A stretch of 61,687 bases of DNA from Holophagaceae bacterium (GTDB lineage Bacteria; Acidobacteriota; Holophagae; Holophagales; Holophagaceae). The translations under genes were made by a program, and so were the position numbers. The DNA is taken from contig JANXPB010000131.1 of the NCBI GenBank assembly GCA_025357545.1, positions 1 to 61,687 on the forward strand, written 5' to 3'. A model generated the notes under the pieces. It saw nothing but the letters and a program-made list of their open reading frames with translations. It searched no databases and had not been told where the DNA came from. Position 1 is the stretch's first letter. Each line of letters begins with the position of its first letter. Shown one piece after another: positions 44,122 to 53,083 of the stretch.

Positions 44122-46044
44122 TCATCCGCCGTCAGCCTTCGGACCCGCCTCCTCGGCGGTGGGCTCCTCCCCAAGGGCTTCCGCCTCGGGGTTCAATTTG
44201 TGCATCACCTTCCGGTAGTACTCCGGCCGGGTTTCGCGCACATGGTCGGCGGAAGTCTTGCCGGTGAGCCAGGCTTGGTCCATGGGATACACGTCCGGAT
44301 CGAAGATCACCAGGTACCAGTGCCACACCAGGATGGAAAGCGTCGCCAGGATGGCTTCGTACCAATGGGCGGTGGTGGCGGCGTCCGTCACCCATTTCGG
44401 GAAGACGCTCAGGCTCCAGTTGTTGGCCCAAAGCAGGAGTCCCGTCACGGCCATCACGATGGTGCCCCACATGAAGGCCCAGTACTCCATTTTCTCGGCA
44501 TAGCCGAACATGCCAAAGGTGGGCCGGGTTTTGATGAGGCCAAGGTTGAAGCGGAACATGTTGAAGATGTCCTTGGCGTCCTGCCAGCCGGGGAGCAGCT
44601 GCGGAAGGATGACCCGGTCACGCTTCACGAAGGCGACGTGGACCAGGTGGTAGACAGTTGCCACAGTTATGATGACGGCGGCGATGCGATGGAGGATGCC
44701 CCGCAGGGCCGGCGCGAAGTTGAAGCAAAGCTTGACCCAGCCGGCCTCGGGGAATTTCAGCGCGAAGCCCGTGACCACCAGCGAAATGAAGCTCAGCACC
44801 ACCATCCCGTGGGTGATCCTGAATTTCAAGTTCATGCGCGGGAATTGCTCGCCGGTGCCATGGGTGTGCTTGCCACGCCGCAGCTTGGCGAAGAAGTCCA
44901 GGCCGTTGTGCAGGAGCATGAAGCCGATGGTGAGGGGGATCAGCCACAGGTAGGTAAGGCGGATCCAGCGCACCGAGACGTGCTCCGTCATGGTGGCGGA
45001 CCCCAGGTGCACCCGCCCGATGGCGAAGCGCTGGTTGACGCCAGGATGGCAGCGCCCGCAGGTCTGGGTGAGATTCTTGGGATTGATGGTGGAGCGTGGA
45101 TCGCTGGAGGCCAGGATGTTGTGGATGCCGTGGCAGGAAGCACAGTTCGCGACGGTCTGGGAACCACCCCGGGAAGCCAGGCCATGGAAACTGTCCTGGA
45201 AACTCGGGAGCTTGTCCTGGGACAGGTTGTAGCGGGCCGCGAGGCGTTCGTCCGCGTGGCAGCGCCCGCAGGTGACGGTGGAGACCCGGGCGGGATTCAC
45301 CAGGGAGCCGGCTTCGGCGGGCGCGAGGATGTTGTGTTCGCCATGGCAGCTCGTGCAGTCCGGCGCGGCCTTCGAGCCGGCCTTCACCGCGAGGCCGTGC
45401 ACGCTCTGGGAATAGGCCTCCAGCACGTCCGAGTGGCATTTCCCGCAGGTCTGCGCCACCACCTTGTGGCCGGTCCGGGACTTGTCATCCTTTCCCGAAA
45501 GGATGCGATGACTGCCGTGGCAGTCGAAACAGGAAGCCGCATTGTTGTCCCCGCGGGCCACCGCGCGGCCATGGACGCTCAGGCGGTAGGCCTCCACGGG
45601 CTTGGCAAAGGGGATCTTGTGGCGGGCCAGGAAATCGGGATTGGAATGGCAGGCGCCGCAGGTGTCGGCCATGTTCTGCTTGGCGATCTTGGAGGCTGGA
45701 TCGCTGCCGGGAAGGATCTCGTGGGGCGCACCGTGGCAGGAGGTGCAGCTGGCCCCATCGGGCATGCCGCTCTTCCTGGCATTGCCATGGACGCTTTTTG
45801 CGTATTCCTTGGATTCTTCCGCATGGCAGGCGGCGCAGCTCACCTTGGGCGGCTTGTCCGCATGGGGCAGCGTTCCGATGGTGGCGTGGCAGTCCCGGCA
45901 GCCGAGGCTGCCATGGATGCTCTTCTCGAAACGCGGAAGATCCACCTCGTGGCACGCGGCGCACTCCTGGCCCTTCGCGGGCGGGGCGGCGGGCGACGCC
46001 GTCGACAGCAGCAGGGAAAGCATTCCAGCCAGGGCGAAGGACAT
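44122..46044 (-). CDS. CbcL-like fusion: 11-haem cytochrome c with membrane cytochrome b domain
   Basis: A 640-residue protein. A signal peptide (1-19) precedes a periplasmic region (about 25-345) with eleven CxxCH sites (CAACH, CRDCH, CAACH, CTSCH, CGACH, CFDCH, CGKCH, CTSCH, CGRCH, CASCH, CGRCH). The C-terminal part (about 355-575) has at least four membrane helices and histidines of a di-haem b domain (RITHGMVVLSFISLVVTG; ILHRIAAVIITVATVYHLVHVAF; VWHWYLVIF). This is the layout of Geobacter CbcL, a quinol-oxidising inner-membrane cytochrome fusion needed for metal reduction at low potential, which has nine c-type haems. The name is by architecture; homology level is not tested. GAGG lies before the ATG. 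Confidence 0.85.
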   Translation of the reverse strand: MSFALAGMLSLLLSTASPAAPPAKGQECAACHEVDLPRFEKSIHGSLGCRDCHATIGTLPHADKPPKVSCAACHAEESKEYAKSVHGNARKSGMPDGASCTSCHGAPHEILPGSDPASKIAKQNMADTCGACHSNPDFLARHKIPFAKPVEAYRLSVHGRAVARGDNNAASCFDCHGSHRILSGKDDKSRTGHKVVAQTCGKCHSDVLEAYSQSVHGLAVKAGSKAAPDCTSCHGEHNILAPAEAGSLVNPARVSTVTCGRCHADERLAARYNLSQDKLPSFQDSFHGLASRGGSQTVANCASCHGIHNILASSDPRSTINPKNLTQTCGRCHPGVNQRFAIGRVHLGSATMTEHVSVRWIRLTYLWLIPLTIGFMLLHNGLDFFAKLRRGKHTHGTGEQFPRMNLKFRITHGMVVLSFISLVVTGFALKFPEAGWVKLCFNFAPALRGILHRIAAVIITVATVYHLVHVAFVKRDRVILPQLLPGWQDAKDIFNMFRFNLGLIKTRPTFGMFGYAEKMEYWAFMWGTIVMAVTGLLLWANNWSLSVFPKWVTDAATTAHWYEAILATLSILVWHWYLVIFDPDVYPMDQAWLTGKTSADHVRETRPEYYRKVMHKLNPEAEALGEEPTAEEAGPKADGG

Positions 46045-46298
46045 GGGCGCCTCGAGGATGGGCCGCCGTGCGAAGCCGCAGTGCCCTTGGGTTTCATTTT
46101 GCTTTCAGGCAAACCGCATTCCGTCACATTGGCGTGCCACCGGGGCACTTGTGATCTAGATCCGTTCCATTCCGGGCGGCCGGATGCAGGCCGCATGGCA
46201 TAGGTCACAACTGCCCCAACCCCCTGGAAATGCGGCGATTCCCGCGAGGGAAGACCCTATGCTGATCCGTGTTGAAACATGAACCCAGGGGGACCTGA

Positions 46299-47717
46299 AT
46301 GATGAAGAACCTGTTCGCGAAGATCTCGCGGAATCCCGTGAGCCTCCTGGGCGTGGTGGTCACCACGGTCAGCGCCATCATCTTCCTGACGCTATTCGCC
46401 ATCGAGCTGGTGGGCTTCAGCGGCGGACCCTACGTGGGAATCATGGCCTTCCTGATCGTCCCCGCGTTCTTCGTGGGCGGCCTGCTCCTCATCCCGTTCG
46501 GGATCTGGCGCGCCCGGCGGAAGGCGAAACAGGCCGCAGAGCGCGGCGAAGAAGCCGCGCCCGAGGCCTTCCCGGTCATCGATTTGAACGTCGTGAAGGT
46601 CCGCAAGACCCTGCTCTTCTTCGCAGCCCTCTCCATAGTCAACGTGATCATCGTCTCCACCGCCACCTATAAGGGTGTCGAGGTGATGGGCACGACCAAA
46701 TTTTGCGGCACCGCGTGCCACAGCGTCATGGCGCCCGAGTACACCACCTACCAGCGCTCTCCCCACGCCCGGGTGAAGTGCGTGGAATGCCACATCGGCT
46801 CGGGCGCGAGCTGGTTCGTAAAATCAAAGCTCTCCGGCTCCTGGCAGCTGGTCTCGGTGCTGTTCAACCTCTATGAACGCCCCATCCCGACCCCCGTCCA
46901 CAACCTGCGCCCGGCCCGGGACACTTGCGAGCAGTGCCACTGGCCCACCAAGTTCGTGGGCGACCGCCTGAAGGTCATCACCAAGTTCGACGAAGACGAG
47001 AAGAACACCGAGAAGAAGACCGCCGTCCTGCTCCATGTGGGCGGCAGCATGGGTTCCACCTCCCGGGGCATCCACTGGCATGTGGACCGCGGCGTCCACG
47101 TGAGCTACGCCTCCGACGAGAAGCGCGAAACCATCGGCGACGTGGAACTGACCTTGCCCGACGGCACCCACCGGATCTACAAGGCCTCAACCGCCCCCGC
47201 CAAGCCCGCGAAGGCCATGCGGAACATGGACTGCATCGACTGCCACAACCGCCCTTCGCACATCTACCGGTTGCCGGATGAAGAGATCGACGCCGCTCTT
47301 TTTGACGGCCGCATCGACCGCAGTCTGCCCTTCATTCATCGGGAGGCCATGAAGGCCCTGAAGGCTCCTTACGCCACCCGCGAGGAGGCCCAGGAGAAGA
47401 TCCGTCTCGCCATCCAAGGCTTCTACTCGGCCACTTATCCCGACCTGGCGAAGACCAAGTCCCAGGCCATCGAAGCCGCGGTGAAAAGCTTGCAGGGCAT
47501 CTACACTTCCAACGTGTGGCCCAGCATGAAGATCGCCTGGGGCGCCTACCCGAGCTACCTCGGGCACACCACCGCGACCGGCTGCTTCCGCTGCCACGAC
47601 GACGAACACAAATCCGCCGAGGGGCGGAAGATCTCCCAGGACTGCTCGCTGTGCCATTCGGTGCTGGCGCAGGACGAGGCCGATCCGAAAATCCTGAAGG
47701 ACCTGCTGCAGCCCTGA
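46299..47717 (+). CDS. NapC/NirT-like multihaem cytochrome c with an unusual CX3CH site
   Basis: A 472-residue protein. Three membrane helices are at about 15-37, 46-70 and 104-122. The haem region then has Cys136-GTA-Cys-His141, which is CX3CH instead of CX2CH, and five standard sites (CVECH, CEQCH, CIDCH, CFRCH, CSLCH). The first two sites with HSVMAPEYTTYQRSPHARVK between them match the NapC/NrfH N-terminal pattern. NapC proteins oxidise menaquinol and pass electrons to periplasmic partners. It is convergent with the small cytochrome gene, with a hairpin terminator between them. Confidence 0.85.
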   Translation: MMKNLFAKISRNPVSLLGVVVTTVSAIIFLTLFAIELVGFSGGPYVGIMAFLIVPAFFVGGLLLIPFGIWRARRKAKQAAERGEEAAPEAFPVIDLNVVKVRKTLLFFAALSIVNVIIVSTATYKGVEVMGTTKFCGTACHSVMAPEYTTYQRSPHARVKCVECHIGSGASWFVKSKLSGSWQLVSVLFNLYERPIPTPVHNLRPARDTCEQCHWPTKFVGDRLKVITKFDEDEKNTEKKTAVLLHVGGSMGSTSRGIHWHVDRGVHVSYASDEKRETIGDVELTLPDGTHRIYKASTAPAKPAKAMRNMDCIDCHNRPSHIYRLPDEEIDAALFDGRIDRSLPFIHREAMKALKAPYATREEAQEKIRLAIQGFYSATYPDLAKTKSQAIEAAVKSLQGIYTSNVWPSMKIAWGAYPSYLGHTTATGCFRCHDDEHKSAEGRKISQDCSLCHSVLAQDEADPKILKDLLQP

Positions 47718-47792: not shown

Positions 47793-48044
47793 CTATTTCT
47801 TGTAGTCCTTGAGCCAGTTCAGATCGACCTTGTCGGCCTTGTTCTTTGCTTTGCAGTCCATCAGGAACTTGCCCATGTCGGTGAGGTTCTTGGCGTCGTT
47901 CTTTTCGCCCGCATGGCAAGACTTGCAGTTCTCGACATTCTTGAAGCCCAGCTTCTGGGCTTCTTTGACCCAGGTCAGTTTCGCGGAGGCCGGCAGCGCG
48001 CACATGAATGCCGCAGCGGCCAGTAACAGGGTGGTACGACGCAT
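47793..48044 (-). CDS. Small secreted monohaem cytochrome c
   Basis: An 83-residue precursor. A signal peptide (1-21, cleavage after ALPASA) leaves a mature protein of about 62 residues with one CKSCH haem site near residue 40 and many lysines. There is a methionine candidate for the distal ligand (LTDMGKFLM). Size and charge suggest a soluble periplasmic electron shuttle between the membrane cytochromes on either side. It is not a triple-haem PpcA-type protein. Confidence 0.8.
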   Translation of the reverse strand: MRRTTLLLAAAAFMCALPASAKLTWVKEAQKLGFKNVENCKSCHAGEKNDAKNLTDMGKFLMDCKAKNKADKVDLNWLKDYKK

Positions 48045-48484: not shown

Positions 48485-49261
48485 GTGACCGTAGGGCTCC
48501 TTTTTGACGCGACACGTTGCATCGGCTGCGGTGCCTGCGCTTCGGCGTGCAAGGAGCAGAACAAGCTCCCAGGCCCCGTGGAGGAGGAAACCAGCGCCTA
48601 TACCTGGACCACGGTCAAGCCCGTGGGCGACATCTACTCGCGGCGGCTCTGCATGCACTGCCTGGTGCCGACCTGCGCCTCCGTCTGCCCCGTGGGCGCG
48701 CTGCACAAGACGCCTGAAGGCCCCGTGATCTACGCCGAGGACAAATGCATGGGTTGCCGCTACTGCATGATGGCCTGTCCCTTCGACGTGCCTAAGTACC
48801 AGTGGGACAAGGCGGTGCCCATCATTGGCAAATGCATCATGTGCACCAGCCGAGTGAAGAAGGGCGAGCCCACCGCCTGCGCGGCCGCATGCCCTGCTGA
48901 AGCGACGATCTTCGGCAGCCGCGCCGATCTCATCCGTGAAGCCAAGGATCGCCTCCGGAAGAATCCCACGGGCTATGTGGACCACCTGTACGGGCTGACG
49001 GAAGCGGGCGGTACATCCGTGCTGATGCTGTCCAACCAGCTCTTCGAAAAGCTTGGCCTGAAGGCGAACCTCCCCAGCGAGCCGCCCGCCATGCGGACGT
49101 GGCAGGTGCTCTCGAACATCCCCGACTTCGTGGCCGTCTGGGGCGTCTTCCTCTACGGCGTCCACTGGATCACGGCACGCCGGGAGGTGGTCGCCGCCTA
49201 TGAGCCACCACGGCAGGGCCCGGACATCCAGGACGATTCGCACATGGGGAGGCCCTCATGA
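48485..49261 (+). CDS. HybA/NrfC-type four-cluster ferredoxin protein without Tat signal
   Basis: A 258-residue protein with four 4Fe-4S cysteine sets: CIGCGACASAC (12-22), CMHCLVPTCASVC, CMGCRYCMMAC, and CIMC with CAAAC. A C-terminal membrane helix is seen near 225-243 (WGVFLYGVHWITA). HybA-like proteins carry a Tat signal for the periplasm; here the protein begins MTVGLLFDATRCIG, so the signal is absent and the Fe-S domain probably stays cytoplasmic. The GTG start has AGGAG seven bases upstream, which argues against a missed N-terminal extension. The HybB gene overlaps its stop (ATGA). Confidence 0.9.
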   Translation: MTVGLLFDATRCIGCGACASACKEQNKLPGPVEEETSAYTWTTVKPVGDIYSRRLCMHCLVPTCASVCPVGALHKTPEGPVIYAEDKCMGCRYCMMACPFDVPKYQWDKAVPIIGKCIMCTSRVKKGEPTACAAACPAEATIFGSRADLIREAKDRLRKNPTGYVDHLYGLTEAGGTSVLMLSNQLFEKLGLKANLPSEPPAMRTWQVLSNIPDFVAVWGVFLYGVHWITARREVVAAYEPPRQGPDIQDDSHMGRPS

Positions 49262-50421
49262 ATACTACCGTCGCGCTCCCCTCGAAACGCTTCCATTTCG
49301 GGTTCTGGACCACCGTGTTCGGCTTGGTCTTCGTGCCCTTCTGCTTTGTCACGGTGCTGCGCTTCTACAAGGGCCTTGGCGCCGTCACACACCTGAGCGA
49401 CAAGTTCCCCTGGGGGCTCTGGATCGGATTCGACCTGCTGTGCGGCGTCGGCCTGGCCGCCGGCGCCTTCACGCTGACGGCGGTGGTGCATCTCTTCAAT
49501 CTCAAGAAATTCGAACCCATCGTGCGGCCCACGATCCTCACGGGATTCCTGGGCTACATCTTCGTGATCACGGCCCTCATGTTCGACCTGGGCCAGCCCT
49601 GGCGCATCTGGCACGCCATCGTCTACTGGAATCCCCACTCGGTCATGTTCGAAGTGGCCTGGTGCGTGATGCTCTACACCACCGTACTCGCGGTGGAATT
49701 CGCGCCGGTGGTGCTGGAGCGCTTCGGCTTCCACACGCCCATCAAGATCATCCATGCGGTGATCACGCCGTTGGTCATCCTTGGCGTGCTGCTCTCCACG
49801 CTGCACCAGTCCTCCCTGGGCACGCTCTACCTCATCGTGCCCTCCAAACTGCACCCGCTTTGGTACTCGCAGCTGCTGCCGCTCTTCTTCTACATCTCGG
49901 CCATCGGCGCGGGCATCGGCATGGTGATCCTGGAATCCTACCTGAGCCAGCGGGCCTTCGGCCGCCACCTGGAGATGGACCTGCTGGAGCCCCTGGCCCG
50001 CGCCATGGTCGTGGCGCTGGGCATCTACGGCCTGATGCGCCTCCAGTCCATCCACCGGAACGGCGCCTTCGGGGCCATCACGGACTTCACCTACGAGGGC
50101 CGCATGTTCCTGGTGGAATTCGTGCTCGGCGTGGTGCTGCCCGTGGCCCTGCTCTCCTTCCGCCGCCTGCGGACCAATCCCCGGTGGCTGGTGACCGGAG
50201 CCTTCCTGGCGGTGCTGGGTTTCGTGGTGAACCGGCTCAACGTCAGCATCACCGGCATGGAGGGCGCGGCCGGTATCCGCTACGTGCCAGCGCTGGCGGA
50301 GATCATCGTGTCCGTCGGCCTGGTGGGCATCGGCATGGCGGCCTTCGCGCTGGCGGTGAGGTACCTGAAGATCTTCCCCGAGCGCAGCCCGCTCGGCGAG
50401 GGCGGGGCAGAAGGGGGTTGA
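49258..50421 (+). CDS. HybB/NrfD-type quinone-reactive membrane protein
   Basis: A 387-residue protein with about ten membrane helices. It matches HybB: KFPWGLWIGFDLLCGVGLAAGAF near 49-71 and FDLGQPWRIWHAIVYWNPHSVMFEVAWCVMLY near 114-145 are strong signatures. NrfD-family proteins exchange electrons between quinone and an Fe-S partner and may move protons. It overlaps the Fe-S gene by four bases and ends four bases before the sensor kinase gene, so the four plus-strand genes are one operon. Confidence 0.92.
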   Translation: MNTTVALPSKRFHFGFWTTVFGLVFVPFCFVTVLRFYKGLGAVTHLSDKFPWGLWIGFDLLCGVGLAAGAFTLTAVVHLFNLKKFEPIVRPTILTGFLGYIFVITALMFDLGQPWRIWHAIVYWNPHSVMFEVAWCVMLYTTVLAVEFAPVVLERFGFHTPIKIIHAVITPLVILGVLLSTLHQSSLGTLYLIVPSKLHPLWYSQLLPLFFYISAIGAGIGMVILESYLSQRAFGRHLEMDLLEPLARAMVVALGIYGLMRLQSIHRNGAFGAITDFTYEGRMFLVEFVLGVVLPVALLSFRRLRTNPRWLVTGAFLAVLGFVVNRLNVSITGMEGAAGIRYVPALAEIIVSVGLVGIGMAAFALAVRYLKIFPERSPLGEGGAEGG

Positions 50422-50425
50422 CCGG

Positions 50426-51952
50426 ATGCGGACGCGCATCGGCACCAGGCTGATCTTGGGCGCCGGACTCGTGACGGCGACCGTCATCGGCCTCATGACC
50501 GCGTCCATCCTGCGCACCCACGCAGCCCAGCTCGTCTCCGAGCGCACCCGCAGCGCCAACCAGCTCAGCGAGACCATCAAGAGCAGCACGCACTTCGACA
50601 TGCTCGAGAACCGCCGCGAAAACCTGCACCGGCAGATTCGAGCCATTGGCAGCCTGCAGGGCGAGGGCATCCGCAAGGTCCGCCTCTTCAACAAGGAGGG
50701 GCAGATCATGTTCTCCTCGGACAAGGGGGAAATCGGCACGACCCTCGATACGCACGGCGAAGCCTGCTACGCCTGCCATGCCGAAGGCCAACCCCTGGAG
50801 AAGCTGGGCATCCAGGCCCGCGCGCGCATCTTCCCCGGCCCGGACGGCCAGCGGGTGCTGGGCATCATCAACCCCATCCCCAACGAGGCCTCCTGCTCCA
50901 CCGCGGAGTGCCACGCCCACAGTCCCTCCCAGCGGATCCTCGGCGTCCTGGACGTCAATGTCTCCATGGCGGAGGCCGACGCGGAAATCGCCCGCAGCCG
51001 CGTGCTGATGGGGGCCCTGGCGTTGCTGGCCTTCCTGGCCAGCAGCCTGATCCTCTGGTGGCTCAACCGGCAGCTCGTGCTCAAACCCGTCACCGCGCTG
51101 CTGGCGGGCACCCGGCGCGTGGCGGAGGGCGACCTCACCACCACCATCCCCATCACGGCACAGAACGAGCTCGGCGACCTGGCCACCGCCTTCAACCAGA
51201 TGACCCACCGCATGGCGGAGACCCAGCTCCAGCTCGCCCAGGCGGACAAGCTCGCCTCGGTGGGGCGCCTGGCCGCGGGCATCGCCCATGAGATCAACAA
51301 CCCCCTCACGGGGGTCCTCAGCTACGCCTCGCTGCTGAAGAAGCGCTTCGAGGCGGACTCGGCCGTGAGCGACGACCTGGACATCATCATCCGCGAGACC
51401 ATCCGCTGCCGGGGCATCATCCGCGGCCTGCTGGACTTCGCGCGGCCCACGCCGCCCTCCCGCAAGCCCACGGACCTGAACGAGGTGGTGCGCCATGCGG
51501 TGGCGGTGGTGATGAAACAACTCCAGATGAGCCACGTGAACCTCGCCCTGGAGCTGGCGGAAGACCTGCCCTTCGCCTACGCCGACGCCAACCAGATCCA
51601 GCAGGTGATAGTCAACCTGCTGCTGAACGCCGCGGACGCCATCGGCCCTGACGGGGGCGAAATCCGCCTGGGTTCCCGCGCCCTCCCGGAGCGCATCGAA
51701 CTGAGCATCGAAGACAACGGCCGAGGCATACCAGCGGACAACCTGCCCCAGCTGTTCGAGCCTTTCTTTTCAACCAAGGGCACGCGCGGCACGGGTCTGG
51801 GCCTCGCCGTGACCTGGGGCATCATCGAGAGCCACGCCGGCAGCATCGACGTCCAGAGCGAGCCGGAGCACGGCGCGCGCTTCACCATCAGCCTTCCCTT
51901 GAGGCCCCCACCCGCCTCGGCGCAGGCCGCAACCGAAACCCCATCTGCCTAG
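50426..51952 (+). CDS. Sensor histidine kinase with periplasmic haem-binding sensor domain
   Basis: A 508-residue kinase. Membrane helices are at about 8-28 and 194-213. The periplasmic part between has a CYACH site (114-118) and a second C-STAE-CH site (157-163), a CX4CH spacing. HAMP follows (about 214-266), then the H-box LAAGIAHEINNPLTG with His288, N-box NLLLNAADAI, G1 DNGRGI and G2 GTGLGLAV. The kinase core is NtrB/ZraS-like. A covalently bound haem on the sensor suggests redox or gas sensing in the periplasm. It lies just after the quinone module and before the receiver-GcvH gene. Confidence 0.9.
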   Translation: MRTRIGTRLILGAGLVTATVIGLMTASILRTHAAQLVSERTRSANQLSETIKSSTHFDMLENRRENLHRQIRAIGSLQGEGIRKVRLFNKEGQIMFSSDKGEIGTTLDTHGEACYACHAEGQPLEKLGIQARARIFPGPDGQRVLGIINPIPNEASCSTAECHAHSPSQRILGVLDVNVSMAEADAEIARSRVLMGALALLAFLASSLILWWLNRQLVLKPVTALLAGTRRVAEGDLTTTIPITAQNELGDLATAFNQMTHRMAETQLQLAQADKLASVGRLAAGIAHEINNPLTGVLSYASLLKKRFEADSAVSDDLDIIIRETIRCRGIIRGLLDFARPTPPSRKPTDLNEVVRHAVAVVMKQLQMSHVNLALELAEDLPFAYADANQIQQVIVNLLLNAADAIGPDGGEIRLGSRALPERIELSIEDNGRGIPADNLPQLFEPFFSTKGTRGTGLGLAVTWGIIESHAGSIDVQSEPEHGARFTISLPLRPPPASAQAATETPSA

Positions 51953-51961
51953 GAGGCCACC

Positions 51962-53083
51962 ATGACCGCCCTTCTCATCCTAATAATGTTCGTCGCCTTC
52001 GCCGGCATCGATTTCCTGGTGCGCGACAGCGCGCGCCGTCTGAAGGTGAAACGCGAGCGGCAGGCCCGGGAGGCCGTGCTGAACCTGTCGGTGCGCCTGA
52101 ATTTCACCCACGAGGCCAAATCCCTGAAGCGCGTGGAAGTGGCCCACCCCAAGGCGCGCATCCTCGCCGTGGACGACGAGCCCGTGGTGCTCGATTCCTT
52201 CCGGCGCATCCTGGTGCTGGAAGGCTATAACGTCGACACCGTGGAAACCGGCCCGGAAGCCCTCGGGCTCGTGCAGCGCCACGACTACGATTTCGTGTTC
52301 ACCGACATGAAGATGCCGGACATGAGCGGCGTCGAACTCGTGAAGGCCGTGAAGCATCTGCGCCCCGACGTGGACGTGGTCGTCATCACCGGCTACGGGA
52401 CCATCGAGACCGCCGTCGAGACGCTGCAGCACGGCGCCGCTGAGTACGTGCAGAAGCCTTTCACCGCCGACGAGCTGGCGGAGTTCGCCCGGAAGCTGCT
52501 GATCAAGCGCGAAGCCAGGCTCGAAGCCCAGCGCCTGCCGGCCGTGCGCGTCGTCAGCCCGGCCACCGCCGAAACCATTCCCGCCAATGAATACTGCGTT
52601 CCTGGGGGCGCCTTCATCGCGCCGGGCCACACCTGGGCCCGCATCGAGCCCAACGGCCAGGTCCGGATCGGCGTCGACGACTTCGCCCGGAAAGCGCTGG
52701 GGCCCATCAATGAAGTGGTCACTCCCAGCCACGGACAGACGGTCAAGCGGGGCGACACGCTCTTCACGTTGAAGCATGGCTCCGAATTCGTGCACTTCGC
52801 GGCGCCCCTCAGCGGCCGCGTGACCTCCGAGAACAGCGGCCTTCAGTCCGACGCGACCCCGGTCATCACCAGCCCCTACGACCGTGGGTGGATCTGCATG
52901 CTGCAGCCGAGCGACCTCACGCGGGAGCTGCCCGGCCTGCGCATTGGCAAGCCCGTGGTGGCCTGGTACCAGGACGAGATCAAGCGCCTGCGGGAGACTC
53001 AGGCGCCCCAATCCCCGGACCTGGGACACCTGGACATGGCCGCCTTCGAACAGCAGTTCCTCGAACCCGCCGCGAAGGCCTGA
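51962..53083 (+). CDS. Membrane-tethered receiver domain fused to a GcvH-like domain
   Basis: A 373-residue protein. Residues 1-20 form a hydrophobic helix (LLILIMFVAFAGIDFLV). The receiver domain is at about 65-185: acidic D71/D72, phospho-acceptor Asp115 (FTDMKMP), conserved Lys165 (VQKPF). Residues about 209-318 look like glycine-cleavage H protein: GHTWARIEPNGQVRIGVDDF, GQTVKRGDTLFTL, APLSGRV, and SPYDRGW. The position of the lipoyl lysine is Ser274, so lipoylation is not expected. There is no DNA-binding domain. AGGAGG precedes the start. As the partner of the haem kinase, it probably acts on a protein at the membrane. This is inference. Confidence 0.85.
   Translation: MTALLILIMFVAFAGIDFLVRDSARRLKVKRERQAREAVLNLSVRLNFTHEAKSLKRVEVAHPKARILAVDDEPVVLDSFRRILVLEGYNVDTVETGPEALGLVQRHDYDFVFTDMKMPDMSGVELVKAVKHLRPDVDVVVITGYGTIETAVETLQHGAAEYVQKPFTADELAEFARKLLIKREARLEAQRLPAVRVVSPATAETIPANEYCVPGGAFIAPGHTWARIEPNGQVRIGVDDFARKALGPINEVVTPSHGQTVKRGDTLFTLKHGSEFVHFAAPLSGRVTSENSGLQSDATPVITSPYDRGWICMLQPSDLTRELPGLRIGKPVVAWYQDEIKRLRETQAPQSPDLGHLDMAAFEQQFLEPAAKA

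Follow-up and report, generated by a model that had tools for sequence, protein, structure and literature searches.

A membrane-anchored response regulator with a non-lipoyl GcvH-like domain, genetically linked to a HybAB-type quinone module in Holophagaceae

Introduction

Most two-component outputs target DNA, second messengers or motility. A gene from a Holophagaceae bacterium raises the question of what a response regulator might control when its output domain is a glycine cleavage H-protein (GcvH) fold that lacks the lipoyl lysine. The gene occupies positions 51,962–53,083 (+) of a 61,687-nucleotide stretch of DNA (contig JANXPB010000131.1), referred to here as the window. Its 373-residue product, RR-GcvH, consists of a membrane helix, a receiver and a non-lipoyl GcvH-like domain. 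An earlier note on this DNA suggested that such a protein may gate electron flow directly, which is plausible as a hypothesis. A literature search that covered few subscription papers returned no description of receiver-GcvH fusions or of a non-lipoyl GcvH-like family, and the family is apparently undescribed so far.

Domain architecture and fold

RR-GcvH starts with a hydrophobic helix (residues 2–21; 51,965–52,024, +) followed by a strongly basic coil; the helix spans residues 2–41 in the full-length AlphaFold model. By the positive-inside rule, the basic stretch predicts a cytoplasmic location for the receiver and GcvH parts. The receiver (residues 67–174; 52,160–52,483, +) matches Pfam Response_reg (E = 7.3e-30) and keeps D71, D72, D115, T143 and K165, all of which are invariant in an alignment of 21 orthologues. 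Asp115 (52,304–52,306, +) is the predicted phosphorylation site. Pfam assigns residues 223–322 (52,628–52,927, +) to GCV_H (E = 7.1e-16; 58.7 bits, cut-off 22.2) and detects no HTH or other DNA-binding domain, and orthologues likewise have none. The receiver and the kinase make RR-GcvH a response regulator, yet it is not of the DNA-binding type. The membrane helix, the intact receiver with Asp115 and Lys165, and the missing DNA-binding domain had all been read from the sequence in the earlier note, and each reading is upheld.

The GcvH assignment made in that note is confirmed by sequence profile and by structure. An AlphaFold2 model of the GcvH part, built with 66 homologues, has a mean pLDDT of 89.2 and a pTM of 0.85; the full-length model has a local confidence of 83.6 and a pTM of 0.51, with low confidence in domain placement. 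Every one of the 22 Foldseek matches in the PDB at E ≤ 1e-3 is a GcvH protein; 1onl leads the list with E = 1.4e-12 and a target-based TM-score of 0.89. GcvH also ranks first in searches with the family sequence profile (1onl, E = 3.4e-30). Other barrel-sandwich families (NqrA, biotin/lipoyl) were considered and rejected as weak matches, with Foldseek favouring GcvH by many orders of magnitude. Beyond the GcvH domain lies a C-terminal extension with a helix (residues 330–347) and a tail helix (359–372; together 52,949–53,077, +), which is common to members of the non-lipoyl family and absent from classical GcvH.

The GcvH part has a dN/dS of about 0.07 relative to its nearest relative, so RR-GcvH is a protein under purifying selection. 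This value and the occurrence of RR-GcvH in 23 of 37 genomes of the window's family rule out a chance or decayed reading frame. A PHROGs search with RR-GcvH gave matches to the receiver only, and a plasmid search gave ordinary receivers only.

A GcvH-like family that does not keep the lipoyl site

Ser274 (52,781–52,783, +) aligns with the lipoyl lysine in the ESVKTV motif of a separate canonical GcvH that the same organism encodes on another contig (L001). The residue sits at the tip of a freely drifting hairpin. Among 152 aligned homologues, the lipoyl column contains Gly (69), Ala (18), Ser (13), Glu (13), Asp (13), Lys (8) and others, so that lysine is absent from 144 of 152 members. The earlier note described replacement of the lipoyl lysine by Ser274, with Lys271 three residues away. 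The lysine is indeed absent, but its loss is a property of the family and not an event in RR-GcvH; Lys271 does lie three residues upstream of Ser274, but orthologues have R, Q, E or G in its place, and it was therefore rejected as a substitute lipoylation site. Two close orthologues (L006 and L025) carry lysine at position 274, which we read as probable chance at a variable hairpin position. The alignment indicates that the family to which RR-GcvH belongs has, taken together, no conserved lipoyl site.

Comparison with known proteins sets the family apart. The RR-GcvH output shares its fold (1onl) and clear sequence homology with GcvH (PF01597) but lacks the lipoyl lysine and has extra C-terminal helices, a receiver and an anchor. 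No gcvT or gcvP was noticed on reading the open reading frames around RR-GcvH, a reading made without model searches. The lipoate-binding proteins (LbpA) of the sHdr system are likewise GcvH-like proteins of redox metabolism, often present in two or more copies beside electron-transfer genes (PMC6067878). The lipoyl lysine is strictly conserved in LbpA (PMC6067878), whereas it is not conserved in the RR-GcvH family, and the same kind of reading around the operon revealed no hdr-like or LplA-like ligase genes. GcvH-L of Streptococcus pyogenes (PDB 5a35) has a diverged GcvH fold that matches the RR-GcvH domain (Foldseek E = 4e-6), although more weakly than classical GcvH does, and it is not a receiver fusion. 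RR-GcvH thus has the GcvH fold but fails on the conserved lysine that defines functional GcvH and LbpA.

The family was surveyed by searching 396 Acidobacteriota genomes and scanning GTDB genomes. It occurs in Acidobacteriota, Desulfobacterota, Nitrospirae, Zixibacteria and others, with three N-terminal forms: a membrane helix (type A), a Cys-rich segment (type B) and a receiver. Most members are free-standing and have a membrane helix or Cys-rich N-terminus, and tandem copies of GcvH-like genes occur at 16 loci. The type B segment follows the pattern CxWMxAGxVxYKxCDxxYxCExCxFD; its four-Cys motif (e.g., L103:11573-12325, L122:9608-10537 and L162:4564-5286) may bind metal, and Pfam finds no domain in the type B N-termini of the L122 and L085 proteins. 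Two loci encode a GcvH-like domain fused to a 2Fe-2S/4Fe-4S NuoG-like segment (L111:8269-9564 and L115:3414-4712); these fusions sit in a NuoE/NuoF-like cluster and adjoin a type B GcvH-like protein. GcvH-like proteins near a kinase, an NtrC-type regulator and an archaemetzincin-like (M54) peptidase occur at L122, L129, L126, L115 and L092. The small M54-like peptidase accompanies GcvH-like proteins in several phyla, with the Pfam M54 assignment confirmed in L092 only.

Operon structure and linkage to HybA and HybB

RR-GcvH is the last of four genes in the window that overlap or lie less than 10 bp apart. The first encodes a HybA/HmcB-type 4Fe-4S ferredoxin with a C-terminal membrane helix and no Tat signal (48,485–49,261, +). 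It overlaps a gene for a HybB/NrfD-type quinone-interacting membrane subunit of Hmc/Hyb-like type (49,258–50,421, +), which ends 4 bp before a histidine kinase gene (50,426–51,952, +); RR-GcvH follows the kinase after 9 bp. HybA scores best against HmcB and HybA, and HybB against HmcC and HybB, all below curated cut-offs. The pairing of an NrfD-type membrane subunit with a 4Fe-4S ferredoxin is that of HybAB, HmcBC and QrcCD modules, but the conserved four-gene operon contains no hydrogenase or cytochrome subunit.

The kinase has a periplasmic sensor with CYACH and, 43 residues on, a CX4CH motif, followed by HAMP, HisKA and HATPase domains. Both motifs are kept, with few exceptions, in HybAB-linked kinases of Acidobacteriota and Nitrospirae; the Desulfobacterota kinases seen have neither. 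Motifs of this type suggest that the sensor may bind haem covalently.

The linkage of the fusion to HybA/HybB and the haem-motif kinase, to which the earlier note had drawn attention, is conserved and far stronger than a single sequence could reveal. Almost every relative whose locus is complete has the four-gene operon, including the kinase–RR-GcvH pairing, a few of them with a different gene order. Across 37 genomes of the window's family, 21 have both RR-GcvH and HybB, two have RR-GcvH only (G006 and G010, both on short contigs), two have HybB only (G003, which is fragmentary, and G005, which is divergent) and 12 have neither (Fisher p ~4e-6, not corrected for kinship). The association extends to loci that lack a receiver fusion. 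HybB lies within 10 kb of at least 50 of 74 GcvH-like loci, among the matches listed, in Acidobacteriota outside the window's family, and many of these loci also have a haem-type kinase and an NtrC-type regulator. On a Nitrospirae contig the order is GcvH-HybA-HybB-GcvH-GcvH-NtrC-kinase, with three GcvH-like genes flanking HybAB. The GcvH-HybAB association is therefore independent of the receiver. Members of the same family in Desulfobacterota occur beside kinases, with no HybAB in the loci seen, so HybAB cannot be the family's only partner.

No Tat signal is present in HybA of the window or its family. Related clusters differ: several have a Tat-bearing HybA, and RR-GcvH is present in some of these (L080–L083). 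Given these differing signals and the basic residues that follow the C-terminal helix of HybA, HybA may face either side of the membrane. HybB proteins with a C-terminal trihaem c7-type extension occur at L085:7193-8797 (-), where Pfam identifies it, and at L105:12440-14089, which has three CXXCH motifs; such extensions suggest that electrons could be delivered directly to the periplasm.

CbcL-like and NapC-like multihaem cytochromes adjoin the operon in the window (44,122–47,717). The earlier note had given weight to the CbcL-like neighbour, and this part of its picture is not general: such cytochromes accompany RR-GcvH elsewhere only in G006 (both) and G002 (NapC). A general link to them was rejected, and this narrow distribution marks them as accessory. 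An 83-residue protein with a signal-peptide-like start and one CXXCH, evidently a small monohaem cytochrome c, is encoded at 47,793–48,044 (-). A copy with 82% identity occurs in G002 (L064), and none was found in the other neighbourhood loci searched.

Origin of the fusion

Fusions in which a receiver separates the membrane helix from the GcvH domain occur in at least four families besides the window's own. Scored with a position matrix of the type A helix, 19 of 20 RR-GcvH helices rank above all 128 unrelated control helices (the exception, L073, has a helix offset by one residue in the alignment), which indicates that the RR-GcvH anchor is homologous to the anchors of free-standing type A proteins. 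The C-terminal tail is also common to both. On the simplest history, the ancestor would have been a free-standing GcvH-like protein, already part of HybAB clusters, that acquired a receiver between its anchor and its GcvH domain.

Anchored-fusion receivers of the window's family and of f19, f28, f82 and f6 form one clade in a FastTree phylogeny read without support values, and this clade is separate from the NtrC-type regulators of unfused clusters. Derivation of the receiver from the cluster's own NtrC regulator is thus unsupported. Those regulators (NtrC-type in 3/3 tested) likewise stand beside a haem-motif kinase and HybAB but carry a sigma-54 activator domain and HTH_8, whereas the fused regulator has no DNA-binding domain. 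At two loci (L082:9027-9833 and L083:1779-2615), the kinase and anchored RR-GcvH genes are separated by a gene for an additional receiver-GcvH protein, which is soluble, and in L078 and L079 a short receiver adjoins the anchored protein. The soluble L082/L083 receivers group with these short receivers in the tree.

Proposed role and alternatives

We tentatively propose, at a little under an even chance, that RR-GcvH is an effector with a cofactor-free GcvH fold that is controlled by phosphorylation and works through protein contact with HybAB. RR-GcvH would be the output of a redox two-component system at the membrane rather than on DNA. The kinase sensor would read the periplasmic redox state through its covalently bound haem, and the kinase would phosphorylate Asp115 of the receiver encoded beside it. 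Phosphorylation would alter docking of the membrane-held GcvH-like domain on the quinone-linked HybA/HybB module, and this change would raise or lower electron flow through the module or its assembly. The strongest support for this mechanism is the association of GcvH-like proteins with HybAB both with and without a receiver. Its main uncertainty is topology: with RR-GcvH predicted to be cytoplasmic and HybA possibly on the other side, contact might have to be with HybB, which is possible whichever side HybA faces.

The receiver-less clusters are also what would be expected if RR-GcvH were mainly a structural or assembly subunit of HybAB, a constant GcvH scaffold whose receiver tunes stability or assembly but not turnover. 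Frequent tandem copies fit complex subunits of this kind, but such a scaffold leaves the full set of receiver catalytic residues beside a dedicated kinase unexplained, and we regard it as rather unlikely. RR-GcvH might instead relay or buffer phosphate for a regulator that controls transcription, with the GcvH domain serving only to localise it. The second receiver found between the kinase and RR-GcvH in some loci (L078, L079, L082 and L083) and the use of an NtrC-type DNA-binding regulator in unfused clusters agree with such a relay; it is nonetheless distinctly improbable because the operon has no second regulator in the window or in most relatives and the GcvH domain is itself strongly selected.

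Two further possibilities give the GcvH-like domain a different task. It could be a sensor input that controls the receiver on binding a small molecule or metabolite and is no effector itself. Barrel-sandwich folds accept a variety of partners and may have tasks beyond glycine cleavage, but the domain lies C-terminal to the receiver, the usual place of an output, and also occurs beside HybAB where receivers are absent, which makes a sensor very unlikely. Finally, the domain could still be lipoylated, on Lys271 or another lysine, and act as a redox swinging arm. The GcvH fold, the proximity of Lys271 to the hairpin and the lysine at position 274 in two orthologues would suit a swinging arm, but the predominance of Gly, Ala, Ser, Asp and Glu in the lipoyl column and the substitutions at Lys271 leave it barely credible.

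Implications

Members of this family are likely to be annotated as glycine cleavage H-proteins even though the usual lipoate site cannot be used. The docking mechanism proposed for RR-GcvH would, if true, provide a role for a large group of GcvH-like proteins, and a phosphorylation-controlled adaptor on a respiratory quinone module would connect redox sensing directly to control of electron flow. With only four genes, the operon lends itself to study in cultured relatives. It may be, with a probability approaching one half, that cofactor-free GcvH-fold proteins, a widespread family, are subunits or regulators of quinone-linked electron-transfer modules and that receiver insertion in several Acidobacteriota families led to post-translational gating of respiration. 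Cells may then switch a respiratory complex directly and not through gene expression.
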